From Armatimonadota bacterium (GTDB taxonomy: Bacteria > Armatimonadota > UBA5829 > DTLH01): a DNA stretch of 37,744 bases. The first letter of the stretch is position 1. Each line of letters begins with the position of its first letter. The stretch is taken from positions 1 through 37,744 of the forward strand of contig JAKPFN010000057.1 of the NCBI GenBank assembly GCA_029551395.1. Reading direction: 5' to 3'. This document shows, in pieces, positions 5,601 to 35,599 of the stretch. The notes beneath the pieces were generated by a model, which had not been told where the DNA came from, did not search any database, and was given only the letters and a program-made list of their open reading frames with translations. The position numbers were made by a program, and so were the translations under genes.

Positions 5601-6345
5601 CAACCACAGTATGAACGGTAATGACCGTATTCCTGCTACCTAGAGATTTAGCCCAAGAGTCGGCATGAGGGAATACTGCAGGGTTCATGTGATGGAGTAT
5701 TGCAGAGGCATGGTTTAGTTTTCTTGCCCCTTTCCGAGCCATATTCCATTCTAACCCGTTTATTGAAGGACAAAGCGCGATGAACTCATCTAGCTCACCC
5801 TTACTTTCCAGATCAATCTCAAGTTCTGCAATATCATAATCCAGAGCATAATCCAGTTTTGATAACAGTGCTCTATATACAACATCTGCAATTTTCTCAT
5901 CTCCTAACCTCACTTCAGAAGCCTTGGAGATATCGAACATAATGACTTCGCTGGGGATTTTCGCGTTAATAAAATCTATAAAACTCTCGACTTGAGTATC
6001 CGCTACCTTAGCTTTGAATAACTGGCTTGCGCTGTAACCAAGGACACCTTGATTGGCTAATACATAACCTAGATTCTTTGCAAAAGAAGACTTACCTGAG
6101 CCAAAGAAACCAGAGATCCATATACCTATTCCTTCATGTGGCTCAGCCGGAGCATCAGCTATGGCTCTGAATACTTCCCGATACTGCTCACGAATTCTGT
6201 CTGTGACAACATATTCGGTGATTTCAGTATAAACTGATTGCTCATCGGTTTGGTCAACCTTTATGACTTCCTCGATCTTGTGGTTTAGATCACGGGCAAG
6301 CAAGTCACTAATTCTCTGCATAGATAACACCTCTAGGTTAGCCAT
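2677..6345 (-). CDS. brxC: BREX P-loop ATPase BrxC (PglY family)
   Basis: A 1222-aa STAND/AAA-like ATPase of the BREX system, required for defence and thought to power or assemble the BREX complex. A Walker A, GFFGSGKSS, lies at residues 79-87 and a Walker B, LVIIIDE, at 264-270. The N-terminal region (residues 1-60) matches the start of BrxC proteins, and the length is as expected. Near the C-terminus a CSSCGATL pair, preceded by another Cys, could bind zinc. The start is ATG 6345, overlapping the brxB stop by 8 nt, which suggests translational coupling. The frame is continuous with no frameshift. The family assignment is strong from motif, length and neighbours. Confidence 0.95.
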   Translation of the reverse strand: MANLEVLSMQRISDLLARDLNHKIEEVIKVDQTDEQSVYTEITEYVVTDRIREQYREVFRAIADAPAEPHEGIGIWISGFFGSGKSSFAKNLGYVLANQGVLGYSASQLFKAKVADTQVESFIDFINAKIPSEVIMFDISKASEVRLGDEKIADVVYRALLSKLDYALDYDIAELEIDLESKGELDEFIALCPSINGLEWNMARKGARKLNHASAILHHMNPAVFPHADSWAKSLGSRNTVITVHTVVERAFELTARRRPGKALVIIIDEVGQYVARSAEKIEDLRALVEEFGKVGKNLVNAKKAIAPAWVVVTSQEKLDEVVAAIDSKRVELAKLQDRFKYRIDMAPADIHEVATKRVLAKKDSAIPALTELFDKSQGQLNAAVKLERTSRKSSVVEKDFVQFYPYLPHYVELSIDILSGIRLQPGAPKHYGGSNRTVIKQAYEMLVSDRTSLATKPVGRLVTVDNIFELVEGNLSTEKQKDISDITQRFKDDPQDQGMAARVAKALAVLEFVRDLPRTESNIAACLVSEVGQYSPLAEVQRAIKLLDDSQFIRNTEEGWKLQTAQEKGWDNERRGYLEPKPKDRNEIIRGTITDIFEEPELKTYRFRNLRNFRVGISINGIQTGDQGQIPLAIIATEDAEDYRAKLSETRDESRRNENTIYWVFFLNAEIDDLVAGLYASKQMVSKYDQLRAQNNITNEEASLLQAEKNEVLRIQGRLRDKMLDALQGGTGMFRGVSKDGSVLGKTTSEMFRNLFDFAVPDLYPKLEMGARPIKGTEADEILKAANLSGLSNVFYGGESGLNLVVKEGSKFVPNLSADIVKEVLDYLTNEHQYGNRDTRTGKSLETHFSGLGYGWDRDTLRLILSVLFRGGAIDVTYGGQRFDSYLDPRSREPFTSNTTFKSALFTPTTVIDLKTLTSAVKTYEELTGDTVDVEKNAIAAAFKQLASDELDALKDLEAVIKANHLPVAETIEDYKNTLATVVDGTADYCVRTLAGEGQSLRDAREKVRKIREAADEQGLKIIQHAHVAADQMWPVLSERGKDGHVAPDAEELKNLLGSATFYDSIMDIKLKTNTVASAYKEAYKEVHTKRGESFASAIDDVKGRSEWLNVPDEMKDPVLSSLTSRACQYLDLHDDSAVCSSCGATLNQMDSDLAAVGGLKGQVLARVQEITAPKQKVERIHLYNFFTDSLDSEEAVESAVERLKEHLLKLLAEGVKIVLE

Positions 6346-6925
6346 AGATTTTAACGCGGTAATTTCCTAATGCTTCACGGCCTTTCAAATCCATAAAACG
6401 CAAGCCTGTTGTTCCATCCAATGCACCAGGATAGAAAAGGATTGTAGTTACCATAGTCTTACCTTGTAATTCATCAAGCAATTTAGACATATGATATATT
6501 CCTGGAGCCATTGCACCAGCTCTTGTGAGAAAAGCAACATTCTTGTTTGTATCTAGCTTTTCTAAATGTTTCACCAACACATCAACAAGTGGTTTCCAAT
6601 CACGATCAGACATGTAAGTGGTAACTTGATCCTGAGCTGCTTTGTATCCTCTATCGTTTTCGAGCTCAACTATAGCATCTAGCCCTTCTGTAGTATCAAT
6701 TATTTCCCACAGTAAATCTGCAAGGGATATAAATTCAATTGCCTTGCCATTCTCTAGAAGCCTAGTGGATAATAGCCTCAACTGGCGCCTAAGTTCCCAC
6801 TCTTCTTTGGGTTCATAGCGAAAGATTGCAAAAGGCAAGTCGTGATACACACTGATTCTAGATGGCACGGATTTTAGGTCATTTTCCAGCAACTCAATTC
6901 GCTCTGCGAGCGATAACATGGGCAT
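6338..6925 (-). CDS. brxB: BREX protein BrxB (DUF1788)
   Basis: A 195-aa DUF1788 protein, a core component of BREX loci whose biochemical role is not settled. It carries the conserved features of the family: an N-terminal LAERIELLENDL helix, the YHDLPFAIFRYEP block, and a C-terminal stretch ending in TTGLRFMDLKGREALGNYR. The second half, LTRAGAMAPGIYHMSKLLDEL, resembles a Rossmann-like segment seen in BrxB. It overlaps brxA by 32 nt and brxC by 8 nt, so the three are translated from one message. A second ATG (6919) two codons in is an equally possible start. Confidence 0.93.
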   Translation of the reverse strand: MPMLSLAERIELLENDLKSVPSRISVYHDLPFAIFRYEPKEEWELRRQLRLLSTRLLENGKAIEFISLADLLWEIIDTTEGLDAIVELENDRGYKAAQDQVTTYMSDRDWKPLVDVLVKHLEKLDTNKNVAFLTRAGAMAPGIYHMSKLLDELQGKTMVTTILFYPGALDGTTGLRFMDLKGREALGNYRVKIYG

Positions 6926-9754: not shown

Positions 9755-10771
9755 CTACTTCATTTGCTGTCTCCTTTTGCGGTTTGATGGAAAGTTATTT
9801 CTGGCTGATCGCACTGTTAACTGTTGATGCATATTCTTCTGCCTCTTTTTGTCCTCCATAGCTACAATATTCATTGGTGAATGATTTGAGTGAGCTTTCT
9901 TAAGGTCTGTCTCTACCAGAGCCAGGTAACCCTGTAAGACTGTCAGTGACGAATGACCCATAAGCCTACGGAGCGTTTCAATATCGCACCCACTGCGTAG
10001 ACTCCACGTAGCGAATGTTCTGCGAAGCCTATGTGGCCCCAATGGATTTATGCCAGCACGTTTTCCTATGTCGATAACAACCTGCTGGAGCCCATTTGCG
10101 GTGTACTGGCCCTGATGTCCTACCCATAATGGATCATCAACCTCGAGCTCACATGGACATACTCTTAAATACCTCTTGAGTGATATCCTTACTTCAGGTG
10201 AAAGAAAGACATATCGATGTTTACCACCCTTACCTCTTATGATAAGGGTATCCTCTTGGATATCTCCGACTTTCAGATTTGCTGCTTCATGAATACGTAA
10301 ACCTGTGTCTAACAGCACCCCTAGCAAGGCTTTATCACGGATCATTTTGTAATCCCTGCCTTCACAGGCAGCAAAAAGCCGCTGTACTTCTTCGAGACTG
10401 AGGTCTGGTTTCATCACCTTGTCCTTCTTAGGCGGATCCACCTTGAGAAATGGGTTGTTGTCTGTCAGTTCTTCTCGAATCAGCCAGTTCCAGAAGATTT
10501 TCGGATTCCTGTAGCTGTCATGTAAAGTATGGGTGGATATTCCATCGTGGCGGCGCTTGATGATCCATCTGCGGATGTCTTGAGTCTGGACATCTTCTGG
10601 CTTGCAGTTGGGCTTATCTTCGTGAAGCCACTTGACGAAGGCAGTCACCTCTCGTCTATAATGGTCGATAGTTCTGGGACTGCAGCCTGAGGCTTCCTTT
10701 GCCTCCAGATACAGTTCAAGTAGTTGCCCTAGAGGACTTCGTTCAAATTCTCGAAGCTGGATGTCGTGCAA
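9755..10771 (-). CDS. Tyrosine-type site-specific integrase
   Basis: A 338-aa phage/island integrase of the XerC/D-like class. The N-terminal SAM-like core-binding domain (LGQLLELYLEAKEASG onward) is followed by the catalytic domain with all active residues visible: Arg in DTGLRIHEA, Lys in GKGGKHR, HxxR in PHRLRRTFAT, His in RLMGHSSL and the Tyr nucleophile in LQGYLALV. A basic tail follows (RNNFPSNRKRRQQMK). The start is TTG 10771, because AGGAGG sits 7 nt before it; a longer frame to 10819 lacks such a site. The gene begins about 110 bp from the tRNA-Gly fragment, the usual place for an island integrase. It probably catalyses integration and, with an excisionase not seen here, excision. 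Confidence 0.93.
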   Translation of the reverse strand: MHDIQLREFERSPLGQLLELYLEAKEASGCSPRTIDHYRREVTAFVKWLHEDKPNCKPEDVQTQDIRRWIIKRRHDGISTHTLHDSYRNPKIFWNWLIREELTDNNPFLKVDPPKKDKVMKPDLSLEEVQRLFAACEGRDYKMIRDKALLGVLLDTGLRIHEAANLKVGDIQEDTLIIRGKGGKHRYVFLSPEVRISLKRYLRVCPCELEVDDPLWVGHQGQYTANGLQQVVIDIGKRAGINPLGPHRLRRTFATWSLRSGCDIETLRRLMGHSSLTVLQGYLALVETDLKKAHSNHSPMNIVAMEDKKRQKNMHQQLTVRSARNNFPSNRKRRQQMK

Positions 10772-10881
10772 TGTAGCACCTCCTAAAATATAGGAGATGA
10801 TACAAAGGGAATGGGACAAATTCTGAGCGTGAATCCGCGCAAAATCAACTCAATGACACTTTTATATCACCAAAATGTCAA

Positions 10882-21301: not shown

Positions 21302-23545
21302 TTACCAACCTCCCTTCAGGGCGTCAGATTTAACCTTAAAGGTCGAATCCTGATTGAACCGGTACTGCTCTGAGGAAGATATGATCCTGCCATCTTGATC
21401 GTATGCAACAACGATCCACATATAGGTCCTTTTAGGCACTAAATGGCGTAACCTTGCTTCCTCAGTAATCTCATCTCTCTGGATGAACCATTCAGGAGTA
21501 ACCTTGACTGAAGTCCCGTTAATTTTTGTTCGTGCCCAACATGTGTAGCCTTCCAGTGTTACATCACCAATCGGCCCCTGGCTGGAATATGGTTGTGCAA
21601 TAACAGAAACTGAATAGTAAGCGGCGTCTGGATATGCATCCCAGACCAATTCCGGCAAGGTACCAACATCCTGGTTGTTGATCGGCTTAATCTGGTGAAT
21701 ACTCTGAGTCAACTGAATATCACACAGCCGAACGGATGATCGATCAACACATACCGGCGGTATGGCACTGGATAGAACATGGCTGCCTGGAGTTCGTATA
21801 TCAAATCCAATGACAACTTCATAATCACCATAAGGAACGTTTTCGATGGTAAACCTGCCATCAGCGCCCGAAGTAGCACCAAGACCAAACCATAGGGGCA
21901 CTGTAAGTGCGCTGGTAAACTGCCTGGTATCATCCGGTGATAATGCATCAATATGTGGCTGTACCAAAGCTACATGCACACCAGCAAGCGGACCATCGTT
22001 GGTCAAGAATCGTCCACTCACGACTCCACGGAATGTAGATCCAGCGCTCTTTTTCATAACGGCTGCAGCCTTTTGTTCCGCATAACGAATAGATACAGGC
22101 GACCAGGCTGCAGAGCGGTTGGCATATTGTATATCGTTTATATAATAAACATATTGGCCAAGAGCATAGTCGTTATTGCCCATTACCTCATATGCATGTG
22201 CTATGACCATCCGACCATTGTCGGCAAAGCAATGGCTAAGTTCAGGACTGGCTTGATCTACAATCGTTAACGCCTGCTTATACTGCCCCTGAGCCAGATA
22301 AGCATGAACCTGCAACAATGCAGCAATACTATGATCACCAGGGTAGCGTTTTCGGAGTAACGAAAGCGTGTCTGCTGCTTTGTCAAATTGCCAGGATGCA
22401 AATTGGCACCTGGCCTTTAAGTATAATGCTTGAGCAGCATAAATATTCCGAGGATACTGGCTCAATAATCTATCACACATCTCGATTTTCAGGTTGTCAT
22501 TATGGCCTTCTAAAGTCCTTGTCCAACCGCCATCTTTATGAAAATGAATATATGCTCTCGTCTTGTTGTTCGGAATACGTACTGCTGCGAGGTAGTATTC
22601 TGATCCCCTCCAGGCATCGTAAATATAACAGGCAACAGCAGTCAACACCACTGTAATGGCTGCAACCTGAATGAATTTATATCTTCTGCTGCCAGTATAG
22701 GGCAGAAAAGTGATTATACCTCCAATCAGAACAACTGCAGTAAATGGGAACACTATTAAACTATAAGTAATTGCAGTGTCATTGCTGTACGCAGACTGCA
22801 TGATAAGAGTTCCAACAAAAATGTGCGCTGCATACAGAAGTCCAGATATCCAGGCTCCAAGAAAAGCTCCCCACAACGTTCCTGTAAAAGCCCACTCCCG
22901 ATTGATTAACCTGTAGGCTGCAGTACCAGCAAAACCACCTAATAAAAGTCCCGTAGTGGTATCTTTGACAAGCGATGGATATACTCTTGTTTCCGGAGTC
23001 TGCACCAATGAAGAGAATATGCCAAATCCGCCCAGGGATAATTCACCCGATGAATCCAGTACCAGCCGAAGGATTGTAACTAAACCCGTCCATACCGCTG
23101 CCACCGCAACACCGAACAATACACTGGTCCTTATACTACGAGTATTACGAGGTATGGTAATGTAAGCCAGTATACTCAAACATATAGAAAACACTACAGC
23201 AAGCTTTAATGTATAGATTGGTGTGACAAATCGAAGCGAACCCACAAGCTCAATAATAAGCCAGCATGCAGCTACACCTGTCAAAACCCCAAAAACAGCT
23301 CGTAGAATGAAAGATGTCCGATGAGTGCGAGTGTAAATTGATGCAACGGAGTAACAGGCAGCAATCAGTCCCAAAGTAATCAGTGCTGCAGGAATCCAGA
23401 TGCCAATATTCACCCACTTAAAGGCCTCAGCCCAGTCCGTTCCGGTTGCCGCCAGAGTGCGCAGCCAGATTGCGGCCTCTATAGCCCCTAAACCAAGCCC
23501 GATAAGTCCGGCTCCAATAAATAGCAGCAGGAACTGCCGATTCAC
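21302..23545 (-). CDS. Large membrane protein with TPR and carboxypeptidase-regulatory-like domains, third gene of ECF operon
   Basis: 747 aa; the whole protein matches no family I can name. Residues 1 to about 310 hold about eight to ten membrane helices. A middle part with repeated ANYAAQALYLKARCQFASW-like helices (about 345-480) looks like TPR. Near 505-610 is a Gly-rich segment with GRFLTNDGPLAGVHVALVQP and SGADGRFTIENVPYGDYEV, the pattern of carboxypeptidase-regulatory (beta-sandwich) domains. A C-terminal Fn3-like stretch (LVWDAYPDAAYYSVSV) follows. The GTG start overlaps the anti-sigma stop (GTGA), with GGAGG 7 nt upstream. Context suggests it senses, or is controlled with, the signal that frees the sigma factor. 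The function is inference. Confidence 0.88.
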   Translation of the reverse strand: MNRQFLLLFIGAGLIGLGLGAIEAAIWLRTLAATGTDWAEAFKWVNIGIWIPAALITLGLIAACYSVASIYTRTHRTSFILRAVFGVLTGVAACWLIIELVGSLRFVTPIYTLKLAVVFSICLSILAYITIPRNTRSIRTSVLFGVAVAAVWTGLVTILRLVLDSSGELSLGGFGIFSSLVQTPETRVYPSLVKDTTTGLLLGGFAGTAAYRLINREWAFTGTLWGAFLGAWISGLLYAAHIFVGTLIMQSAYSNDTAITYSLIVFPFTAVVLIGGIITFLPYTGSRRYKFIQVAAITVVLTAVACYIYDAWRGSEYYLAAVRIPNNKTRAYIHFHKDGGWTRTLEGHNDNLKIEMCDRLLSQYPRNIYAAQALYLKARCQFASWQFDKAADTLSLLRKRYPGDHSIAALLQVHAYLAQGQYKQALTIVDQASPELSHCFADNGRMVIAHAYEVMGNNDYALGQYVYYINDIQYANRSAAWSPVSIRYAEQKAAAVMKKSAGSTFRGVVSGRFLTNDGPLAGVHVALVQPHIDALSPDDTRQFTSALTVPLWFGLGATSGADGRFTIENVPYGDYEVVIGFDIRTPGSHVLSSAIPPVCVDRSSVRLCDIQLTQSIHQIKPINNQDVGTLPELVWDAYPDAAYYSVSVIAQPYSSQGPIGDVTLEGYTCWARTKINGTSVKVTPEWFIQRDEITEEARLRHLVPKRTYMWIVVAYDQDGRIISSSEQYRFNQDSTFKVKSDALKGGW

Positions 23546-24078
23546 CTAAGAGCCTCCTCCGTTGAACGTGTCACCTGGCAAAAACGATAGGCATTCACTC
23601 CTGCCTCAATGTTGCCATCCTGTCTGGGGTTAACGGTAAACACCACTAGATGGCCTGACGACACGTTAGATGTAGCAACAGGAGCTGAATTCAATAGATT
23701 TTTCGCTAAACCACCGATTACTGCCATTATCAATAGAGCAGTGACACATGCTGCTGCAATGGATGCTCTACGATTGAACACAAATCCAGTACAGATGTTG
23801 GAGAACCATTCACTCAGGCGAGTTATTCGATTCTGGCTGAGAGTATCTTCACGAATTCGGTCAGCAATGGCTGATGCAAAACTGTCTGGAACAGAAATAT
23901 CTAAAGCAATATTGCGTATAGCGGTATCCAGGTTGCGCAGACTATCACACTGATCTGCATACAACTGCGAACAAGCGGCACACGAAGATAAGTGATCTGT
24001 CAAACGCTGCATCCTAGGCTCATCTAGAACTCCGTCTGCTGCAAAAGGGATCAATTGTTTTGCCTGTTTGCATTCCAT
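23542..24078 (-). CDS. Anti-sigma factor, zinc-finger (ZAS/RsiW) type
   Basis: 178 aa. The N-terminus carries the ZAS signature: Cys3 (MECKQAK), then HLSSCAACSQ (H-x3-C-x2-C), which binds zinc and clamps the partner sigma factor. A single membrane helix, ASIAAACVTALLIMAVIG, lies around residues 104-121, so it is an inner-membrane anti-sigma with a periplasmic tail of about 50 residues. The start ATG lies 59 nt inside the end of the sigma gene, so the two are co-translated. Release of the sigma factor would need proteolysis or a signal to the periplasmic part. Confidence 0.9.
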   Translation of the reverse strand: MECKQAKQLIPFAADGVLDEPRMQRLTDHLSSCAACSQLYADQCDSLRNLDTAIRNIALDISVPDSFASAIADRIREDTLSQNRITRLSEWFSNICTGFVFNRRASIAAACVTALLIMAVIGGLAKNLLNSAPVATSNVSSGHLVVFTVNPRQDGNIEAGVNAYRFCQVTRSTEEALR

Positions 24079-24646
24079 TATCAGCCACCCTTTCTTTAAG
24101 ATTCAAATCTCCCGCATGGCTAAGATGCTGCTGGAGAAGTAATCTCGCTTTAGCTAATCGAGATCTTACTGTTCCTACTGGCACCTGTTGTATTTCAGCA
24201 ATCTCTTCATAGGATAAATCATCATAATGCCTAAGAATAATTGCTTCTCGATAATACGTAGGTAGTTGTGCTAGCGCAAATTTTACTTGCAATACCTTTT
24301 CCCTTGAGATCAACTCGTCTTCCGGGTTTCCACAGGTTGTATGCCACCGGTCATCGAATGGCACTAGCACTTCTCTTTGTCTTTTACAATCCCGTATCCA
24401 ATTATGCGCTGTATTGAGAGCGATTCGGTGCAGCCACGTAGCAAAACTTGATGTCCCCTTGAATGTCCTAATACACTTGAATGCTCGAATGAATGCCTCC
24501 TGTGCAACGTCCTGGGCATCATCAAAATTACCAAGCAGCAGGTAAAGAACGCGCACCGTTCGGTCCTGGTATTTTCGAACCAGAACCTCAAACGCTGATA
24601 CATCGCCTGATTGACAAGCATCGATTAACGCGTCTTCATCATACAT
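24020..24646 (-). CDS. RNA polymerase ECF-type sigma factor (RpoE-like)
   Basis: 208 aa. Region 2 is seen in FDDAQDVAQEAFIRAF and FATWLHRIALNTAHNWIRD; region 4 in LPTYYREAIILRHYDDLSYE followed by EIAEIQQVPVGTVRSRLAKA, a helix-turn-helix. The length and the N-terminal ALIDACQSGDVSAFE fit SigW/RpoE groups. The C-terminal tail extends about 20 residues beyond region 4 and overlaps the anti-sigma start. It is first in a three-gene operon with its anti-sigma and a large membrane protein. ECF operons are usually self-activated; no clear ECF promoter was recognised upstream. Confidence 0.93.
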   Translation of the reverse strand: MYDEDALIDACQSGDVSAFEVLVRKYQDRTVRVLYLLLGNFDDAQDVAQEAFIRAFKCIRTFKGTSSFATWLHRIALNTAHNWIRDCKRQREVLVPFDDRWHTTCGNPEDELISREKVLQVKFALAQLPTYYREAIILRHYDDLSYEEIAEIQQVPVGTVRSRLAKARLLLQQHLSHAGDLNLKERVADNGMQTGKTIDPFCSRRSSR

Positions 24647-25454: not shown

Positions 25455-26318
25455 TCATATAGCACCAAGCAGACCAAGTATCCGGTTCAACTCATCATCA
25501 CTATAAAACTCAATCTCTATCTTCCCTCTGTCTCGACCTATGGAAATACTAACCCTGGTGCCAAACAGCTTTCGAAGCTGATCTTCAACTTCCAGCAAGT
25601 TCGGATCCTTCTCCTTAACTGGACTTGATGCGTCAAGGGATGTTTCACGTGAAACATCCCCTGCTCCTGTTTCACGGCACAATTTCTCGGTTTCGCGCAC
25701 TGACAGATGGTTTGCTACTACTGCCTGCCATATCTCCTTCTGACGCTTCTCATCAGTCACGCCAAGTAGAGCACGTGCATGCCCTTCGCTAATCTCGTTG
25801 GTTGATAAGCTTTCCTGTATTGCTTTCGGAAGATTGAGCAGCCTGAGCGTGTTTGTAATACTTGGACGGCTCTTTCCGATCCTGAATGCAATGTCATCCT
25901 GGGTTAGTCCGAACTCATCAGCCAATCGTTTGTAGGCCAGCGCGGCCTCGAGCGGCCCAATATCTTCCCTCTGGAGGTTTTCTATTAAAGCTACTTCCAG
26001 GCTTTGTTCGTTGGTAAAGTCCTTTACTATTGCTGGAATTCGAGTCAGTCCAGCGGCAGTTGCAGCTCTCAGGCGGCGCTCACCGGCTACCAGTTCGTAG
26101 CCTCCTTCTCCATTTGAACGCACTACGATTGGCTGTAGAACTCCGTGAAGCCGCACCGACTTAACCAGATCCTGGAATTTATCATTATCTATCGTCTTCC
26201 TAGGCTGGTACGGGTTCAAACTGATCTTATCGATTGGAATATCAGTCGCACCCTTCTCCTCACGCTCAGCACCTGGTATTAAAGCTCCCAGGCCCTTACC
26301 TAGTCCTTTCTTTTCCAA
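25455..26318 (-). CDS. parB: Chromosome partitioning protein ParB (Spo0J type)
   Basis: 287 aa. A CTP-dependent DNA clamp that loads at parS. Motifs: N-terminal KKGLGKGLGALIP that contacts ParA, C1 IDKISLNPYQPRK, CTPase loop VAGERRLRAA, C3 ENLQREDIGPLEAA, the helix-turn-helix (QDDIAFRIGKSRPSITNTLR) and a C-terminal dimerisation segment (DDELNRILGLL). It overlaps parA by 23 nt. A perfect parS lies inside the gene at 25641..25656, encoding DVSRETS in the linker before the C-terminal domain. Full length, no damage seen. Confidence 0.96.
   Translation of the reverse strand: MEKKGLGKGLGALIPGAEREEKGATDIPIDKISLNPYQPRKTIDNDKFQDLVKSVRLHGVLQPIVVRSNGEGGYELVAGERRLRAATAAGLTRIPAIVKDFTNEQSLEVALIENLQREDIGPLEAALAYKRLADEFGLTQDDIAFRIGKSRPSITNTLRLLNLPKAIQESLSTNEISEGHARALLGVTDEKRQKEIWQAVVANHLSVRETEKLCRETGAGDVSRETSLDASSPVKEKDPNLLEVEDQLRKLFGTRVSISIGRDRGKIEIEFYSDDELNRILGLLGAI
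25641..25656. promoter_or_regulatory. parS centromere site, perfect 16-bp palindrome
   Basis: TGTTTCACGTGAAACA is identical to the chromosomal parS consensus bound by ParB. The dyad continues to a perfect 24-bp palindrome, 25637..25660 (GGGA...TCCC). A half-site TGTTTCACG follows at 25669..25677 but lacks its second arm. Its presence suggests the window is near the replication origin. Confidence 0.93.
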
Positions 26319-27072
26319 AATCTATTACCTCCTCGGAGAATCGTCGATACGCTTCAGCACCTTTCGACTTCGGGTCGTATGCTATGATCGGCATACCGTG
26401 ACTAGGTGCTTCTGACAACCGCACGTTTCGCGGTACCAGCACATCAGACACTTTATCGCTAAAGAAGGTCTCTACTTCTTTTACGACCTGCTGGGACAAA
26501 TTCGTTCTGTAATCATACATAGTCAGCAGCACCTTTGCTATCTCCAGGTTTGGATTCAAGTGCTGCCTTACCAGGTCTACAGTTCTTAAAAGCTGACTTA
26601 TGCCTTCCAGCGCATAATATTCGCATTGAATAGGCATAATGACATAATCGGCTGCTGTCAGGACATTTATTGTCAGCAAGCCGAGCGATGGAGGGCAGTC
26701 GATCACTATCATCTTATATCGCTGCCTTACTGTTTCCAGGGCCTGCTTGAGCTTCATCTCTCGAGACATCATAGACATAAGCTCTATATCGGCACCTGCC
26801 AGATCAAGCCGAGCAGGAACAAGATCGAGATTCGGAGTAGTGGTTGGGACTATAACCTCATCAATAGGTTCCCCATTGATGAGAACATCATATATGCATG
26901 CTTTGAGGCTGGATTTGACCACACCTACTCCACTCGTTGCGTTTCCCTGTGGATCCATATCCACAAGCAGCACCTTTTCTCCTGCTGCTCCTGCACATGC
27001 AGCCAAATTTACAGATGTAGTGGTCTTTCCTACACCACCTTTTTGATTTACAACAGCATAAATTATGCCCAT
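26296..27072 (-). CDS. parA: Chromosome partitioning ATPase ParA (Soj)
   Basis: 258 aa. The deviant Walker A KGGVGKTTT is at residues 11-19, Walker A' LLVDMDPQGNATSG near 36-49, and Walker B MIVIDCPPSLG near 121-131. With no N-terminal helix-turn-helix it is of the short Soj type that works with ParB-parS on chromosomes. The start ATG has GGTGGGG about 7 nt upstream. It heads the operon parA-parB-SPOR; a terminator of the flgM-like gene lies 87 bp upstream. Confidence 0.96.
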   Translation of the reverse strand: MGIIYAVVNQKGGVGKTTTSVNLAACAGAAGEKVLLVDMDPQGNATSGVGVVKSSLKACIYDVLINGEPIDEVIVPTTTPNLDLVPARLDLAGADIELMSMMSREMKLKQALETVRQRYKMIVIDCPPSLGLLTINVLTAADYVIMPIQCEYYALEGISQLLRTVDLVRQHLNPNLEIAKVLLTMYDYRTNLSQQVVKEVETFFSDKVSDVLVPRNVRLSEAPSHGMPIIAYDPKSKGAEAYRRFSEEVIDFGKERTR

Positions 27073-27158
27073 CCGTATACCCCACCTGTTCCAGAGCTAT
27101 CCGAGACTAACGCTTTTCCATTATCTTTGTTCAGCTCTGCAGTTCGTACGCCAATAAA

Positions 27159-27181
27159 GAGAGGCCGCGCGGCAGCCTCTC
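27159..27181 (-). terminator. Intrinsic terminator after the flgM-like gene
   Basis: The stem GAGAGGC (27159..27165) / GCCTCTC (27175..27181) has a 9-nt GC-rich loop that can pair further. On the minus strand it is followed by TTTATT. It begins 29 bp past the flgM-like stop and separates it from parA. Confidence 0.7.
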
Positions 27182-27209
27182 CTCAAATATTATGCAAATT
27201 TATCCAACA

Positions 27210-27512
27210 TCATCTAATGCGGTCGGCAGCCCTCCGGCGCATCATCATATCGGCGACTTCCTCACCGCTAACTTTATACTCGCCGCTCTGAATCCGTTTT
27301 TTAAGGTCCTCTATCAGTTCCTCACGGACATCAGGCACATCCTTCAGAGCTTCCTCTGCCACTAGAATGCCCTGCTCAAGCGGTGTTAAATGGGCTCGAG
27401 CTGCAGGATCATCAGCTTTTTTTCGGGGCATCTGCTTTGGAAGGATTTTTTCCTGTTTCCCGTATTCCTTGCTCGATGCAGCATGTCCACATTCAGTAAT
27501 TGAAATCTTCAT
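27210..27512 (-). CDS. flgM: FlgM-family anti-sigma-28 factor
   Basis: 100 aa, the usual FlgM length. The C-terminal third, VREELIEDLKKRIQSGEYKV then SGEEVADMMM, is the FlgM signature (V-x-x-LK-x-x-I-x-x-G-x-Y-x-V-x-x-x-x-(I/V)A) that forms helices wrapping sigma-28 (FliA/SigD). The N-terminal 50 residues are polar and likely disordered, as in FlgM, which is exported through the flagellar apparatus when the hook is complete. ATG 27512 has a GGGAGGGGGA Shine-Dalgarno 6 nt upstream. The leader contains a c-di-GMP-I riboswitch, and the promoter looks sigma-28-dependent. No other flagellar gene lies in the window. Confidence 0.85.
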   Translation of the reverse strand: MKISITECGHAASSKEYGKQEKILPKQMPRKKADDPAARAHLTPLEQGILVAEEALKDVPDVREELIEDLKKRIQSGEYKVSGEEVADMMMRRRAADRIR

Positions 27513-27577
27513 ATCAAATCCCCCTCCCCATTCCGATGTCCTTTAAAACGACAAAAAGGCAAACCATCGAAATAGAA

Positions 27578-27669
27578 GAACGGCAGCCTGGCCAGCATCT
27601 CCCGCTATTAAAGCGGAAGGAAGCCCCTGCGGCTTTGCGTCCCCTTCTTTCGAAGAGTTTGCCTTTTCA
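27578..27669 (-). ncRNA. c-di-GMP-I (GEMM) riboswitch in the flgM leader
   Basis: On the minus strand the aptamer reads GGCAAAC (27657..27663), a CUUC-GAAA-GAAG GNRA hairpin, the invariant GGGACGCAAAGCC (27631..27643), a variable hairpin with CCGC/GCGG, and GGCCAGGCUGCCG (27581..27593), the tetraloop-receptor/P3 part. These in this order define GEMM-I aptamers, which bind cyclic di-GMP or, in some variants, cGAMP. Downstream at 27554..27564, GTTTGCCTTTT is complementary over 11 bp to AAAAGGCAAAC of the aptamer's 5' strand (27657..27667), so the two foldings exclude each other. This gives an expression platform 40-100 nt before the flgM start. Confidence 0.88.
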
Positions 27670-27694
27670 ATACGTTATAATGCGCTCAATCCCA

Positions 27695-27722
27695 TTATCG
27701 GCAGGCGCCAAAGTATTCTTTA
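27695..27722 (-). promoter_or_regulatory. Sigma-28 (FliA/SigD)-type promoter
   Basis: On the minus strand TAAAGAAT (27715..27722) is followed, 12 bp on, by GCCGATAA (27695..27702). GCCGATAA is the complete sigma-28 -10 consensus, and TAAA with a 16-bp spacer fits the -35. Transcription would start near 27688, about 20 nt before the riboswitch. A TATAAC nearby could be an alternative housekeeping -10, without a good -35. Confidence 0.7.
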
Positions 27723-27975: not shown

Positions 27976-29469
27976 ATGTCTACATTACCTGCCGGTCATG
28001 GTGATGATCCGGTCGAAGCAGCAATTGAGCGGTTGATAAAGATCAAATGTCTGGATAGCGAGCTGTTCGAGCTACTTCAATCCGGAACAACCGGACTTGA
28101 ATCTTCCGAAGATCACAACATTAATAACCTGGTGTCAAGGCTTGTCCAACTGCTTGAGGCTCAGCAGTCTTCTATCGCAGAGCTTAGAGCGGAAAATGAA
28201 GGTCTTAAAACAAAGCTGGGGCAGGCTGACACACAGCAGCAGGAGTTGTCCGACCTGTACGAAGTCGCCCAGGTGCTTGCAACAAGACTAGACCGTTCCG
28301 AACTGATAACCATCCTTGAACAGAAGACCAAATCTCTTTTAAATGCAGATACCTGCTCCCTTATGATCCGAGTGCCTGACAAGTCAGAATTACAAATCTT
28401 AGGCCCAGGTCACCAACTCGCTCGTCAGGTATCAATTCCCGAGCATATAGATCTATGTGAGATCGAAGCAGCCCGTGTCGCAACCACAGGTGAGTCCTGC
28501 TTCATTGAAAATGTGCCGAACTGTGAATACTGCCGGTACCGAGACCTTAACTGCTCTGACAATGGGACACATCACATGCTATCCGTGCCTATGATATTTC
28601 AAAACAGGTTGATAGGCGCTGTAAATGCATTTCGTATAAACAAACCTCCTTTCAACAAATCAGATGAGAGAAAGTTGTCCATTATCGCAAGTGCAGCGGC
28701 AGGAGCTATAGAAAACGCTGAGGCTTATCGTAGAGAAAGCGAAACTGCTGACAAACTACAGCGAGGCATAAAACCTGGCTCTGGCTTCAAAATACCGAAT
28801 TTTCTGGTCGGCTGCGACTATATTCCATGTGTCACAGGTACCATAGTCGGCGGGGACTTTTATGATGTCATTAATTTAGATGATAATAATGTCGCAGTAG
28901 TGATAGCTGATGTTGCTGGTAAGGGTATAGATGCTGCGATCCAAGCCGCAACAGCCCGTTTTACTATCAGAGGTCTTCTGCTGGCAGGTCTAAGCCCGGC
29001 GAAAACTCTGGAAAAACTCAATAGAACGCTCTATGAACTTCTTCCTGATGAGGTGTTTATCACTCTTTTCTGTGGAATCCTAAACACTGCAACTGGTGAG
29101 ATGACCTACGCCAATGCCGGACATGATTTCCCAGTGGTGTTCTGCCATGACTTGCGGTCTTGCACAATATGCGAGCTGACAGGATATGCGCTCGGAATGG
29201 TCCCTGACGCCAATTACACAGAACATCGCATCAAACTCAAACCTGACGATATTGCTGTCTTATACACAGATGGAATCACAGAGGCAAGGCATGAAGGAAG
29301 ATTTTTTGGCATTGAAGGACTTCAAGAAACCATCACCCGTAATTCAGTGATGTATCCTAATGACTTGGTGCGAACAATATTCGAAGAGGTATTTTCGTTT
29401 TCCTCAGGCGACCTTAGAGATGATGCTGGTCTACTGATAATCAAAGCCCTACCCAGTCTTTCTGACTAA
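27976..29469 (+). CDS. GAF-domain PP2C-type serine phosphatase (RsbU/SpoIIE-like)
   Basis: 497 aa. Residues 1-95: a polar N-terminus and a coiled coil (LVQLLEAQQSSIAELRAENE). About 95-260: a GAF sensor domain (SDLYEVAQVLATRLDRSELI to IIASAAAGAIENAEAYRRES). About 275-495: a PPM/SpoIIE phosphatase with metal ligands in GGDFYD, ADVAGKGIDAA, LYTDGITEAR and DDAGLLII. Such enzymes dephosphorylate anti-anti-sigma (STAS) proteins. In the GAF domain a cluster NCEYCRYRDLNC could bind a metal or act as a redox switch. The start ATG lacks a strong Shine-Dalgarno. The gene faces away from the flgM-like gene and ends at a strong terminator. Confidence 0.9.
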   Translation: MSTLPAGHGDDPVEAAIERLIKIKCLDSELFELLQSGTTGLESSEDHNINNLVSRLVQLLEAQQSSIAELRAENEGLKTKLGQADTQQQELSDLYEVAQVLATRLDRSELITILEQKTKSLLNADTCSLMIRVPDKSELQILGPGHQLARQVSIPEHIDLCEIEAARVATTGESCFIENVPNCEYCRYRDLNCSDNGTHHMLSVPMIFQNRLIGAVNAFRINKPPFNKSDERKLSIIASAAAGAIENAEAYRRESETADKLQRGIKPGSGFKIPNFLVGCDYIPCVTGTIVGGDFYDVINLDDNNVAVVIADVAGKGIDAAIQAATARFTIRGLLLAGLSPAKTLEKLNRTLYELLPDEVFITLFCGILNTATGEMTYANAGHDFPVVFCHDLRSCTICELTGYALGMVPDANYTEHRIKLKPDDIAVLYTDGITEARHEGRFFGIEGLQETITRNSVMYPNDLVRTIFEEVFSFSSGDLRDDAGLLIIKALPSLSD

Positions 29470-31075: not shown

Positions 31076-31972
31076 CTAGTTTCCTTCATTTGGACAGATC
31101 CATGTATGCCAGTCCTCTCCAATATCGCCTCGCCGGCGGTAACGTTCCATAAAGAGCGGACAACGGCACTCCCTTTCTTTTGTCTCGATTCCTGCGATTA
31201 CAGAAACAGCAAGCTCTGCAATAGATGCAACAGCAGCATCTACTTGCGCAGATTCCGAGTCATCCAGTAGACCTTCAAACAATACTCCGGGTCTGAATGA
31301 ACGTTTTCTGACCCCTTCTGCGTAGTTTGTAATGTAGCACACGGGCGCATAGCAGATTTCCAGCTCTTTTGCCAGGAAAACTTCGGGTATGAGGGTCATC
31401 CCGACAAGAGTTCCGCCGCAGGCCGAGAATTTTCGGATTTCTGCTGGAGTTTCGAGCCGTGGGCCTTCCGTGCAGACATATACATCGTCCGTCCGGCAGG
31501 TGCCGAAACGCTTTCGAACAGCGTCGGCCAGTGCTGATGATAGTTCAGGGCAGAATGTCGGGCTTTGGCGGATGAATCCGAGGCCGAGGTTCTCAAAATA
31601 TGTATATTCCCGGCGGCGGGTTTCATCTATGAGGTCGCCGGGTACTATTATCTCACCGATTTTGAGAGTTGGGTCGATAGCTGCAGGGCCGGACCAGGCT
31701 ATGATGCGCTCGACGCCGAGTTCCTTTAGCGCCCAGATATTTGCTCTGTAATTAACGAACGAAGCTGTGATATTATATCCTTTGTCGCCGTGCCTTGATA
31801 TATAAAAAAAGTCTGTGCCCAGACTCCGGTACCTGTAAACCGGGGCAGAATTGCCGAAAGGAGTTGTTATAGTCCCTAATGGCTCCAGTTCTTCCCGGTG
31901 TTTTGCCAGGAATCGGAAGCCTGCACTTCCACCAATTATTGCTGATTTGACTGATTTTCTCTCGATTGGCAT
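31076..31972 (-). CDS. MTAP/PNP-family purine nucleoside phosphorylase
   Basis: 298 aa; cleaves the glycosidic bond of a purine nucleoside or methylthionucleoside. Motifs of the 5'-methylthioadenosine phosphorylase group: phosphate loop GGSAGF near the N-terminus, SRHGDKGYNITASFVNYRAN, VCTEGPRLETPAEIR and VGMTLIPEVFLAKELEICYA. A C-terminal extension with CRC and a late Cys (CPLFMERYRRRGDIGEDWHT) is longer than in the simplest MTAPs. It is 500 bp from mqnC, so it might process aminodeoxyfutalosine in place of MqnB, but a purine-salvage role is as likely. The start is ATG 31972; AAAGGAG lies about 15 nt upstream. Confidence 0.88.
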   Translation of the reverse strand: MPIERKSVKSAIIGGSAGFRFLAKHREELEPLGTITTPFGNSAPVYRYRSLGTDFFYISRHGDKGYNITASFVNYRANIWALKELGVERIIAWSGPAAIDPTLKIGEIIVPGDLIDETRRREYTYFENLGLGFIRQSPTFCPELSSALADAVRKRFGTCRTDDVYVCTEGPRLETPAEIRKFSACGGTLVGMTLIPEVFLAKELEICYAPVCYITNYAEGVRKRSFRPGVLFEGLLDDSESAQVDAAVASIAELAVSVIAGIETKERECRCPLFMERYRRRGDIGEDWHTWICPNEGN

Positions 31973-32013
31973 AGTTTGTGCACTAGTCTCCTTTAGAGGG
32001 GAGGTTGTATCAA

Positions 32014-32466
32014 ATGAAAATTATTCGCTGCATAGCTGTCATAGCATTTCTTATCGCTCTTCAAGCGCCTGTGTTCGCCGGTTGGACGAATCTGCGTGAT
32101 TCGGCGGCAGACAGGCCAACCTTTGTCATTGATCGGCCCAAAGATATGTCTTGGACTGCATCAATCCCTCGCGTTCCTGTAGTTAAAAACGAGGTTCCTG
32201 TAAGGGTTGACCGCACAACTCTGGCTCCTGACCAGATTTACAGACCGGTTGCCCCTAGAGGCACCTGGGCAGAGCGGCCGAACGTTATCGTAAACAACGA
32301 TTACATCAAAACGGACATGGAGATGAGATCCATGAGACCGACGATCGATCCTAAATTTGCTGCTGCCTATGGTGTTCCAGTCCCGGAACCTGGAAGCATC
32401 TTCGGTCTTTCCGCAGGACTCTTTGGAGTGCTTCTCCAGGCCAGAAGGATGAGAAAACGCTCCTAG
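32014..32466 (+). CDS. Exported protein with PEP-CTERM sorting signal
   Basis: 150 aa. A signal peptide (MKIIRCIAVIAFLIALQAPVFAG) is followed by a polar domain of about 100 residues with no known family, rich in Arg, Pro and Asp. The C-terminus is a PEP-CTERM signal: VPEPGS, then a hydrophobic stretch IFGLSAGLFGVLL, then a basic tail ARRMRKRS. Such proteins are cut and anchored or exported by exosortase (EpsH/XrtA type). ATG 32014 is taken with AGGGGAGG 9 nt upstream; a TTG at 32005 is less likely. No exosortase is in the window. Confidence 0.88.
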   Translation: MKIIRCIAVIAFLIALQAPVFAGWTNLRDSAADRPTFVIDRPKDMSWTASIPRVPVVKNEVPVRVDRTTLAPDQIYRPVAPRGTWAERPNVIVNNDYIKTDMEMRSMRPTIDPKFAAAYGVPVPEPGSIFGLSAGLFGVLLQARRMRKRS

Positions 32467-32488
32467 TCTAGAATCTTGAGACTTTACC

Positions 32489-32514
32489 AGGCCCGCCTTG
32501 TGGTGGGCCTTTTT
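32489..32514 (+). terminator. Intrinsic terminator of the PEP-CTERM gene
   Basis: Stem AGGCCCGCC (32489..32497) / GGTGGGCCT (32502..32510), 9 bp with one G-T, TTGT loop, followed by a T-run on the plus strand only. Confidence 0.9.
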
Positions 32515-32527
32515 GCTGTACAGCGGA

Positions 32528-33607
32528 TTATTTTACAGATTCCATCCTGCTATGCACCCGAAGCGTCTTATAAAGAGTATCACGCTGGGCAGCATCGTAA
32601 CCCGCTCCGTGGATAAGCTCGATAATCCTTTTTTCCGACAGCCTGAACTTCACTCCGGCTGCAGCAACTACATTCTCCTCGATCATCGTACTCCCTATGT
32701 CGTTTGCGCCAAACCTAAGCGCCACTTGTGCAATCGCATCTCCCTGAGTAACCCAGGATGCCTGTATGTTCGGGATGTTGTCAAGCGCAAGCCGGGAAAC
32801 AGCAAGCATCTTCAAGTAATCATGGCCGCCTGGTGTCGTGCCGCCCAAAGCAGTGTTACTAGGCTGATACGTCCACGGGATAAACGCAGTGAAGACATTC
32901 AACCTGTCCTGCATATCTCTGATTCTTATAAGATGTTCGACGCGGTCTTTCAGGGACTCCACATGACCGAAAAGCATCGTGGCAGTTGCCTTCATGCCAA
33001 GTCTAGCTGCGCATTCCATTACCTCTGTCCACTCGGATGTGCTGGCTTTGCCTGGCGAAACTCGCACACGCACGCTGTCCACAAGGATTTCCGCGCCGCC
33101 GCCTGGAAGAGAGTCTAATCCTGCTCTCTGCAGCCTTGCAAGCGTCGTTTCTATATCTAAACCGGACATATCGGCGATGTGGACTATCTCAGGAGCAGAT
33201 AATGAATGAATCTGCACATCGAAACTAGACTTGATGGCACTCAACAGCGACTCGTACCACTCGATTTTCAGTTCTGGATGCAGTCCGCCCTGCATTAGAA
33301 TCTGCGTTGCGCCGAGGTCTACGGCTTCCTGCACCTTGGCGAGAACCTCATCTGTAGTAAGGACGTAACCTTCTGGATGGCCCGGAGGTCTGTAAAACGC
33401 GCAAAAACTGCAGCCGGATGTGCAGATGTTGGTGTAGTTGATGTTTCTATCGATGACGTAAGTTCTCACAGGCTCAGGATGTAGCCTGTCGCATACTAAT
33501 CCTGCTGCAATGCCCAATTCCGTTAAATCTGCGCCCGTCAGAAGTTCCAGAATCTCTCCTGCGGTGAGTCTTCCGCCTGATGCTGCATATTCGAGTAGAT
33601 TATCCAA
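32528..33607 (-). CDS. mqnC: Cyclic dehypoxanthinyl futalosine synthase MqnC (radical SAM)
   Basis: 359 aa. In the futalosine pathway MqnC cyclises dehypoxanthine futalosine. The [4Fe-4S] radical SAM motif CTSGCSFCAFYR (CxxxCxxC) lies near residues 62-73. Other MqnC/MqnE-type blocks are LMQGGLHPELKIEWY, GLDSLPGGGAEILVD, ATMLFGHVES and FIPWTYQPSNTAL. The PWxYQP form rather than PLxFHP separates it from MqnE. It overlaps mqnA by 8 nt, so it is the last gene of the operon. The minus operon has no clear U-rich terminator. Confidence 0.93.
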   Translation of the reverse strand: MDNLLEYAASGGRLTAGEILELLTGADLTELGIAAGLVCDRLHPEPVRTYVIDRNINYTNICTSGCSFCAFYRPPGHPEGYVLTTDEVLAKVQEAVDLGATQILMQGGLHPELKIEWYESLLSAIKSSFDVQIHSLSAPEIVHIADMSGLDIETTLARLQRAGLDSLPGGGAEILVDSVRVRVSPGKASTSEWTEVMECAARLGMKATATMLFGHVESLKDRVEHLIRIRDMQDRLNVFTAFIPWTYQPSNTALGGTTPGGHDYLKMLAVSRLALDNIPNIQASWVTQGDAIAQVALRFGANDIGSTMIEENVVAAAGVKFRLSEKRIIELIHGAGYDAAQRDTLYKTLRVHSRMESVK

Positions 33608-34505
33608 GGTTTGCTCCCTTTGGAGGTAATGTTGGGAAGTTCAAAACCGCTTCGTGATCGATCAATCCGTGCTTTCTGGCCTTTTGCCCAAAAGTTCGAA
33701 GAGACTCGATCTGCTGCGGCCCTAAATCATACTTCATCACCCGTGCCAAATAGTCCTCGCAAAGCTTTTGTGGAAGTCCGAGCCGAAGTGACTGTTCTTT
33801 GGAGATCTCAACTATTCTCTGCAGGCCATCTTCTTTGGCTGCTGTAAGCTGATCCACCAGTTCAGGTGTTATCGACTGCTTAGGGCCAGCCCAGACAGCA
33901 AATACTGCAGGCAGCCCGGTCAGTTTCATCCATTCATCTCCTAAATCCAGCACATGAAGCCCTGTTTTGTCTGCAAGCATCGCTGGATTGCCGATTATCA
34001 ACGCTCCATCATGTTCGGCAAGCATCTTTTCTATGACCGGCTCGCAGTCTACGAATTCAGGATGAACACCATAGTTCTCAGAAAGAACGATTCTAAGCAG
34101 TGCACGGCCTGAAAGCGAACTTGTATCCGCCGCGACGGACCTGACCTTCTGCGGCTCGCATTTCGATAGCATAAGGACTGATGTAACTTCACCCTCGGAT
34201 GCAATACATATTCCGGGCACTATTCCCAGATCCCGGTTAGCAAGACATGCAAAGCTGGAGACCGGCGCTGCGTCGATTCTCTCACTCGCAAGCATTTTGG
34301 CAAGTGTAGAAGGAGTGGCATAGACCAGATCCCATCCTTCAGGAAGCTCCCCATGCTCAAACCGATACACCAGCGGCTTGACGTTCAAATAAGGCAGGCA
34401 GCCCAACTTTACTGTTCTGTCAATATCCGCTGAGTATTGCGTAGTCTGCCGATCTGCATTCCGCATTCCGCACTCCGCACTCCGCACTTTACTCGCTTCT
34501 CTCAT
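33600..34505 (-). CDS. mqnA: Chorismate dehydratase MqnA
   Basis: About 301 aa; removes water from chorismate to give 3-enolpyruvoylbenzoate, the first step of futalosine-type menaquinone synthesis. The family start LGCLPYLNVKPLVYRFEHG appears at residue 33 on; the blocks PSTLAKMLASERIDAAPVSS, ALIIGNPAML and LDLGDEWMKLTGLPAVFAVW follow. The first 31 residues (RSAECGMRNADRQ) come from an array of 7-bp repeats (34456..34489), so they are an inserted, probably unstructured extension. The start is ATG 34505, overlapping the mqnE stop by ATGA. Confidence 0.93.
   Translation of the reverse strand: MREASKVRSAECGMRNADRQTTQYSADIDRTVKLGCLPYLNVKPLVYRFEHGELPEGWDLVYATPSTLAKMLASERIDAAPVSSFACLANRDLGIVPGICIASEGEVTSVLMLSKCEPQKVRSVAADTSSLSGRALLRIVLSENYGVHPEFVDCEPVIEKMLAEHDGALIIGNPAMLADKTGLHVLDLGDEWMKLTGLPAVFAVWAGPKQSITPELVDQLTAAKEDGLQRIVEISKEQSLRLGLPQKLCEDYLARVMKYDLGPQQIESLRTFGQKARKHGLIDHEAVLNFPTLPPKGANLG
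34456..34489. repeat. 7-bp tandem repeat inside the mqnA 5' end
   Basis: Plus strand: two units GCATTCC, two units GCACTCC and a partial GCACTT, together 34 bp (minus strand GGAGTGC/GGAATGC). The unit is not a multiple of three, yet the reading frame of mqnA is kept through it. Slippage of one unit would shift the frame before the conserved part. Confidence 0.9.
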
Positions 34506-35599
34506 CTAACTACCTCTCGATATACCGTATCCCTCTCCACAGGTACAGTGCCGGTTTCTTCTATCATCCTGCGGATATCTGTAACGGTCAGTGCTTCCGG
34601 GGTTTCGGCTCCGGCGCGATGGGTGATTTTTTCTTCCACTACGGTCCCATCGAAGTCGTCTGCTCCGAACGAAAGCGCAACCTGTGCAAGCTTGAGGCCG
34701 AACATAATCCAGAACGCTTTGACATGTGGGAAGTTATCCAGCATCAACCGGCCAACGGCCACTGCCTTAAGATCATCTATCCCTGATCTTGGGCGGGCAA
34801 GATTGGCAAGGTCGGTATTTATCGGGTGGAACCTGAGCGGGATGAAACTCATGAATCCGCCGGTCTCGTCCTGGAGTTCCCGAAGCTTCAGCATATGGTC
34901 CACACGGTCTTCAGGGCGCTCTACATGGCCGTAGAGCATGGTTGCATTGGATTTGATTCCGAGTTTATGGGCTGTTCGGGTCACAGAAAGCCATTCATCA
35001 CCAGTCATCTTCTCTGGACAGACCTGGTTTCGGACCTCTGGGGCAAAAATCTCAGCTCCGCCGCCAGGAATTGAGCCAAGTCCGGCATCTTTCAACCTTC
35101 TAAGGCACTCTTCAACACTGTAGCCGCCGATTTCCGCAATATGCTTGATCTCTACCGCTGTAAACGCCTGCAGATGGACATCCGGAAACCGTTCTTTGAG
35201 GGCTGAAAGCATCCCTGTGTAGTAATCGAACGGCATGGCAGGATGCAGCCCACCGACAAGATGCAGTTCAGTATATTTGAGATCAGCATAATACTCTTCA
35301 GCACGGGCAACGATCTCCTCGATGCTCATCGTATACGCGCCTTCTTCTCCCTCACTTCTGGAAAACGCGCAGAATTTGCACCTATTTTTGCAGATATCTG
35401 TATGATTGATGTGTCGATTGACGATATAGTAAGTCCGGTTACCGTTCTTTCGCCAGCGCACCAAATTCGCCGCCCAGCCGATGGTTGTTATGTCATTGCT
35501 CTTAAACAGCCGAACGCCATCATCGAATGAAAGTCGTTCTCCTGCTTCGACTTTTTCTATTATGTCTGCTATTTCAGATTTTGCTATCAGTTGGTTCAT
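34502..35599 (-). CDS. mqnE: Aminofutalosine synthase MqnE (radical SAM)
   Basis: 365 aa; joins 3-enolpyruvoylbenzoate and SAM to form aminodeoxyfutalosine. The radical SAM motif is CKNRCKFCAFSR (CxxxCxxC) near residues 70-81; blocks TELHLVGGLHPAMPFDYY, GLGSIPGGGAEIF, NATMLYGHVE and FIPLRFHPINTDL follow. The last, PLRFHP, matches MqnE rather than MqnC. It is upstream of mqnA (4-nt ATGA overlap) and 66 bp downstream of the prenyltransferase gene, so these form one transcript. Confidence 0.93.
   Translation of the reverse strand: MNQLIAKSEIADIIEKVEAGERLSFDDGVRLFKSNDITTIGWAANLVRWRKNGNRTYYIVNRHINHTDICKNRCKFCAFSRSEGEEGAYTMSIEEIVARAEEYYADLKYTELHLVGGLHPAMPFDYYTGMLSALKERFPDVHLQAFTAVEIKHIAEIGGYSVEECLRRLKDAGLGSIPGGGAEIFAPEVRNQVCPEKMTGDEWLSVTRTAHKLGIKSNATMLYGHVERPEDRVDHMLKLRELQDETGGFMSFIPLRFHPINTDLANLARPRSGIDDLKAVAVGRLMLDNFPHVKAFWIMFGLKLAQVALSFGADDFDGTVVEEKITHRAGAETPEALTVTDIRRMIEETGTVPVERDTVYREVVR

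Follow-up and report, generated by a model that had tools for sequence, protein, structure and literature searches.

Introduction

In Streptomyces and Rubrobacter, c-di-GMP is bound by the anti-sigma protein RsiG itself in the RsiG-(c-di-GMP)-WhiG system, which in Rubrobacter controls non-flagellar genes, type IV pili (PMC8325347). There, as predicted for the locus described here, c-di-GMP restrains a FliA/WhiG-family sigma factor through an anti-sigma factor, and the promoter is of the TAAA / GCCGATAA type (PMC8325347). The two systems differ in the sensor, which is a protein there, whereas here the amount of a FlgM-like anti-sigma factor is predicted to be set by RNA. The text of PMC8325347 makes no mention of FlgM, riboswitches or Armatimonadota.

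Three described riboswitches resemble the RNA part. Cd1, in front of the flgB operon of Clostridioides difficile, is also a c-di-GMP-I riboswitch through which high c-di-GMP lowers sigma-28 (SigD) output, but it is an OFF switch on an operon that holds sigD, whereas the switch described here is a predicted ON switch on an anti-sigma gene (PMC6366702). The pilM riboswitch of Geobacter metallireducens is of the GEMM-I type, has a terminator and an aptamer that exclude each other, and is turned on by its ligand, as predicted here; unlike the present one, it senses cGAMP, serves a pilus gene and builds its terminator from other strands (PMC9262584). Bc1 of Bacillus thuringiensis is a GEMM-I riboswitch with a ligand-free terminator, and its occupied state may trap the ribosome-binding site, as predicted below for leader family f1, but it controls mcpE and has two terminators (PMC11218506).

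The canonical flagellar FlgM-FliA pair resembles this locus in two respects, the FlgM domain itself and the placing of the sigma factor's own inhibitor under a sigma-28-type promoter, but here a separate flagellar FlgM exists beside the aptamer-associated one. Normally, cells control FlgM by secreting it through the flagellum. A flagellum-independent FlgM with its own c-di-GMP sensor would be another route to anti-sigma control.

Here we analyse a 37,744-nucleotide stretch of an Armatimonadota genome (contig JAKPFN010000057.1; hereinafter the window), in which an earlier note had described a sigma-28 promoter, a c-di-GMP riboswitch and flgM in one leader. The note knew of no GEMM riboswitch on flgM in this type of bacterium. 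Likewise, we found no published case of this arrangement, whether among c-di-GMP or GEMM riboswitches linked to FlgM or anti-sigma factors or among Armatimonadota riboswitches, in the literature within reach, which includes subscription papers in part. The conserved arrangement is real; the riboswitch family is an established one, but its role here is new and coherent.

The FlgM-like gene and its neighbours

The promoter, the aptamer and flgM follow one another on the minus strand of the window. The flgM-like gene (27210..27512, minus strand), which the note had placed 3' of the aptamer, encodes a 100-aa anti-sigma protein with the C-terminal tail RRxxADxxR. The product exceeds the curated cut-offs of both Pfam PF04316 (53 bits, cut-off 25) and NCBIfam TIGR03824 (43.4 bits, cut-off 40.75), and an alignment places it in the subfamily with this tail. 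A profile built from its relatives recovers the solved FlgM chain 9wsf_B (E 2.7e-8), with Aquifex FlgM 1rp3_B as a weak further match (E 0.018). The tail is common to the FlgM proteins encoded behind an aptamer (aptamer-FlgM) and absent from the readable FlgMs without one. No RsiG-like match to the product was found in Pfam or NCBIfam; the Armatimonadota system would work like the RsiG-WhiG switch without being a member of it.

A ribosome-binding site, GGGGAGGGGG, is read from the sequence at 27520..27529 (minus strand). Downstream of flgM, an intrinsic terminator is predicted at 27150..27186 (minus strand; fold of 27200-27140, -22.8 kcal/mol, z -3.62). It is followed by parA (soj; 26296..27072, minus strand; AAA_31, 229 bits) and then parB (25455..26318, minus strand), and both genes lie 3' of flgM in many relatives. 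Co-transcription of flgM with parAB is unlikely because of the strong terminator between them, and parA is probably its own transcription unit.

The source genome contains a second FlgM gene, on contig C145. It has no aptamer and is located between flgJ and flgN, in the order flgI-flgJ-flgM-flgN-flgK-flgL-fliW-fliC as read from the translations.

The promoter

The promoter consists of a −35 element TAAA (27719..27722) and a −10 element GCCGATAA (27695..27702), both on the minus strand. Both elements are exact, as the note had read them, and are separated by N16, close to the roughly 15 nt of sigma-28-type promoters; a spacing of N16 is found in most relatives too. Transcription would start near 27687-27690. 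In homologous leaders the consensus at −35 is CCCTAAAG.

By itself the motif is non-specific, and we rejected it as stand-alone evidence: a loose promoter pattern gives 9 matches in the source genome versus 6 for a reversed control. Its specificity comes only from its conservation. Specifically, TAAAG-N15/16-CCRATAA is present exactly in 24 of 48 homologous leaders and with one mismatch in 9 more, so that 33/48 leaders keep it at this position with at most one mismatch, versus 0.2% of shuffles. A stricter pattern gives 39 matches versus 3 control matches in the genomes of 31 relatives, and 14 of the 39 lie directly 5' of an aptamer-FlgM. Among the 48 leaders, a good match is missing throughout family f17 and in part of f4, f16 and f25.

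The same promoter also stands directly 5' of another aptamer (L174; G022:C5:8697-8836), before a formate-tetrahydrofolate-ligase-like ORF. Some SpoIIE-rsbW genes (L176-L178, L191) also contain promoter-like matches, but these fall within codons that are conserved (LKPAQELADN), and we take them for probable artefacts of the coding sequence.

The aptamer and its conservation in Armatimonadota

The covariance model of the c-di-GMP-I (GEMM-I) aptamer, Rfam RF01051, matches 27579..27673 on the minus strand with 62.5 bits (E 4.5e-10), above the gathering cut-off of 35 bits. It is the sole Rfam match in the whole window, and bears out the aptamer that the note had recognized by eye. As in other GEMM-I riboswitches, the aptamer is located in the leader and overlaps its expression platform; it is predicted from its sequence to bind c-di-GMP. 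The source genome (3.58 Mb in 165 contigs) contains six c-di-GMP-I aptamers and two FlgM genes.

To survey the phylum, we scanned the contigs of 101 genomes with a narrow FlgM alignment as profile and intersected the FlgM matches with aptamer matches by coordinates, requiring the same strand and an aptamer less than about 450 nt 5' of FlgM. The gene order of the window recurs widely: a c-di-GMP-I aptamer lies directly before an FlgM gene in 44/101 Armatimonadota genomes, and in 4 further cases, all in family f16, a weak aptamer lies at the consistent position. With these weak cases the arrangement extends over 14 families. The six f16 leaders (L123-L128) carry degenerate aptamers of 28.6-45.4 bits at the conserved place, four of the six being outside the 44; they possibly have an altered ligand or represent a decaying switch.

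Wherever a genome among the 101 has one aptamer-FlgM and a second FlgM, the second is always without an aptamer; in G010 the candidate lies at a contig edge. Two or even three FlgM genes also occur in genomes without any aptamer-FlgM (G028, G042). In G023, an FlgM (L023/L129) has the aptamer-type tail RRxxADSIR, yet no aptamer was detected 5' of it. Separately, pairs of nearby c-di-GMP-I aptamers are present in the source genome (L001/L091 at G000:C32:102320 and 102753; L003/L006 at G000:C107:66964-67206), and comparable pairs occur in other relatives.

Predicted foldings and sign of the switch

The note had proposed an 11-bp pairing between the aptamer and a downstream segment. Indeed, AAAAGGCAAAC (27667-27657) exactly complements GTTTGCCTTTT (27564-27554), and in the minimum-energy fold (-56.8 kcal/mol, z -3.87) this pairing belongs to a longer helix, of 14+6 bp, that ends at a U-run. 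Specifically, the aptamer 5' strand TGAAAAGGCAAACT (27656..27669, minus strand) also serves as an arm of the terminator helix and pairs with the 3' arm GGTTTGCC (27552..27565, minus strand; U-run at 27557-27553). The duplex has an energy of -16.9 kcal/mol, and 0/300 shuffles are as low. The two predicted foldings, terminator helix and aptamer, cannot form together. With ligand in the aptamer, the platform segment AUUUCGAUG (27565..27573, minus strand) is predicted to pair with CAUCGGAAU (27530..27538, minus strand), directly 5' of the ribosome-binding site (z -2.1, p 0.037).

This design recurs in related leaders. GUUUGCC and the U-run are present in most f1-f5 leaders, where the pairing of aptamer 5' strand and platform beats shuffles in 16/21 (p<=0.01) and the alternative platform hairpin has a mean z of -2.65 (p<=0.01 in 11/21). 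The folding of f2 and f5 leaders points to ON. Leaders of f11, f17 and f27 have no terminator pairing; in them the Shine-Dalgarno sequence (SD; GGAGGCAA-type) pairs with the aptamer 3' strand. In these thermodynamic predictions, computed without ligand or kinetics, closing the aptamer raises SD accessibility, for example from 0.18 to 0.79 (L151) and from 0.21 to 0.55 (L148). Two unlike platforms, terminator and SD sequestration, thus lead to the same predicted sign, ON.

The family of the window itself, f1, calls for a caveat. Closing the aptamer lowers predicted SD accessibility from 0.73 to 0.21 in its leaders L007 and L008, and partly traps the SD of the window's own leader, since G-U pairs extend the platform hairpin into the SD. 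The net sign could be weakened by such trapping, or even reversed. With this caveat for f1, the modelled sign of the switch is ON. In f8, the closed aptamer left modelled SD accessibility unchanged. Pairing and accessibility predictions gave no clear platform in f15, f21 and f25 leaders, and no clear switch mechanism for f8 and f25.

The probable partner sigma factor

Two FliA/WhiG-family sigma factors of the source genome, hereinafter designated F and W, exceed the TIGR02479 cut-off. F is located on contig C102, adjoining flhB-flhA-flhF-flhG, while W (C32:56126-56897; 252.1 bits, cut-off 189.6) lies outside any flagellar cluster. The best PDB match of W is the RNA polymerase sigma factor 6pfv_A (E 2.4e-68), which we take to be the Streptomyces WhiG-RsiG complex. 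W and F form separate clades with support 100/100 in a tree of 35 W and 8 F rows, from which many F rows lacking the search motif were left out.

Across the 101 genomes, aptamer-FlgM tracks W and not F. It co-occurs with W in 43/44 genomes (p 1.5e-14), the W-less exception, G025, being 69% complete, and is not associated with F (p 0.69); FlgM without an aptamer shows the reverse, with p 1.8e-13 for F and 0.42 for W. All four p-values ignore shared ancestry, but five genomes provide independent contrasts beside them: G001 (f1), G005 (f3), G020 (f5), G039 (f17) and G095 (f36) have neither FlhA nor F and have kept both W and aptamer-FlgM. Since aptamer-FlgM occurs in genomes without flagellar export, secretion cannot relieve inhibition there. 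Aptamer-FlgM is absent from 15/16 FlhA-bearing genomes without W. About 10 genomes, e.g. G023, G028, G042 and G043, have W and no aptamer-FlgM, so the link is not obligatory.

The distribution of the promoter points the same way. Several W-only genomes have a perfect consensus promoter on flagellin genes (L200, L208, L210, L212, L218, L219), while none of the W+F genomes examined, including the source genome, has it there; a scan of flagellar clusters gave nothing convincing. Judged by these occurrences, the GCCGATAA promoter most likely belongs to W, and W seems to drive flagellin in the W-only lineages f8, f15, f25 and f27. Other genes with the consensus promoter, named by eye, are candidate members of a W regulon: a CheW-like gene (L169, L170; G019, G025) and glycosyltransferase-like genes (L171, L172, L189; G020, G027, G026).

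The proposed circuit and its alternatives

The computed aptamer, FlgM identity, promoter conservation, exclusive pairing and phylum-wide association with W underlie a circuit whose ligand, ON sign, FlgM-W binding and regulon we infer. W, rather than the flagellar FliA, would transcribe the leader from TAAA-N16-GCCGATAA. At low c-di-GMP, the GUUUGCC strand would capture the aptamer 5' strand in the 14+6 bp helix before the U-run, and transcription would stop before flgM. With c-di-GMP bound, the aptamer would retain its 5' strand and block the terminator, the freed platform would pair just 5' of the ribosome-binding site, and FlgM would be made. FlgM would then bind W and silence the W regulon, its own promoter included, so that high c-di-GMP would mean low W activity. 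We consider this self-regulating circuit from c-di-GMP through riboswitch and FlgM to W, with ON sign, probable. Two proposals of the note find support: a sigma-28-type factor probably transcribes its own inhibitor, and c-di-GMP probably sets the amount of FlgM at an RNA switch.

The note had also assigned this FlgM to the motile-sessile switch, in which c-di-GMP would act by limiting flagellar FliA. Membership in PF04316 and TIGR03824, the flagellar genes of the source genome, and the same promoter on flagellin in W-only f8, f15, f25 and f27 speak for this reading. For the source genome we reject it on location, co-occurrence and promoters: the aptamer-FlgM is unlinked to flagellar genes, the flagellar late operon on C145 has its own aptamer-less FlgM, the aptamer-FlgM is kept in genomes without FlhA and F, and flagellin of the source genome lacks the consensus promoter. 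A flagellar role is thus quite improbable overall, although the motility reading may apply in the four W-only families. That the FlgM-like protein acts on something other than a sigma-28 factor, or on both W and F, would fit the tail RRxxADxxR, unlike that of flagellar FlgMs of the same phylum, and a partnership with W deduced from co-occurrence; the curated FlgM cut-offs and the near-perfect co-occurrence with W make it rather improbable.

The same parts could also form an OFF switch, in which ligand binding would trap the ribosome-binding site, so that c-di-GMP would lower FlgM and raise W activity. The drop in SD accessibility in L007 and L008 is consistent with this, and Bc1 of B. thuringiensis has such an incoherent design (PMC11218506). 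However, terminator/aptamer exclusion is the layout of the ON switch pilM (PMC9262584), and an ON sign is also favoured by the leaders of f2 and f5 and by the SD-type platforms found in other families; we regard the OFF sign as unlikely. As for the ligand, the first G of GGCAAAC is presumably the selectivity position, with G in c-di-GMP types and A in cGAMP types. The window's aptamer and almost all of its relatives have G at this position, which makes 3',3'-cGAMP very improbable, although some GEMM-I aptamers, in Geobacter, sense it (PMC8835794).

More broadly, we lean towards an ancient, phylum-wide riboswitch-FlgM circuit independent of flagellar export, an RNA counterpart of RsiG-WhiG that is convergent in logic. 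It would act on flagellin in W-only lineages and on a non-flagellar surface regulon in lineages that, like the source genome, gained or kept a flagellar FliA-FlgM pair. It also suggests two origins for the coupling of c-di-GMP to a sigma-28-family factor through an anti-sigma factor, one with a protein sensor and one with RNA. In a largely uncultured phylum, these small parts, testable in vitro, offer a concrete entry into its regulation.

Other genes in the window

A GAF-SpoIIE phosphatase gene (27976-29469, plus strand) is divergent from the flgM leader. On the minus strand, a small sigma-70/ECF-type sigma factor adjoins a zinc-finger putative anti-sigma factor (23542-24646). BREX-type defence genes (BrxB and a BrxC-like 1222-aa protein; 2677-6925 and 9755-10819, minus strand) with a phage integrase nearby look like a defence island. 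Phosphorylase-superfamily, VitK2_biosynth and radical-SAM/CofH-type genes at 31076-35599 (minus strand) likely constitute a futalosine menaquinone pathway.
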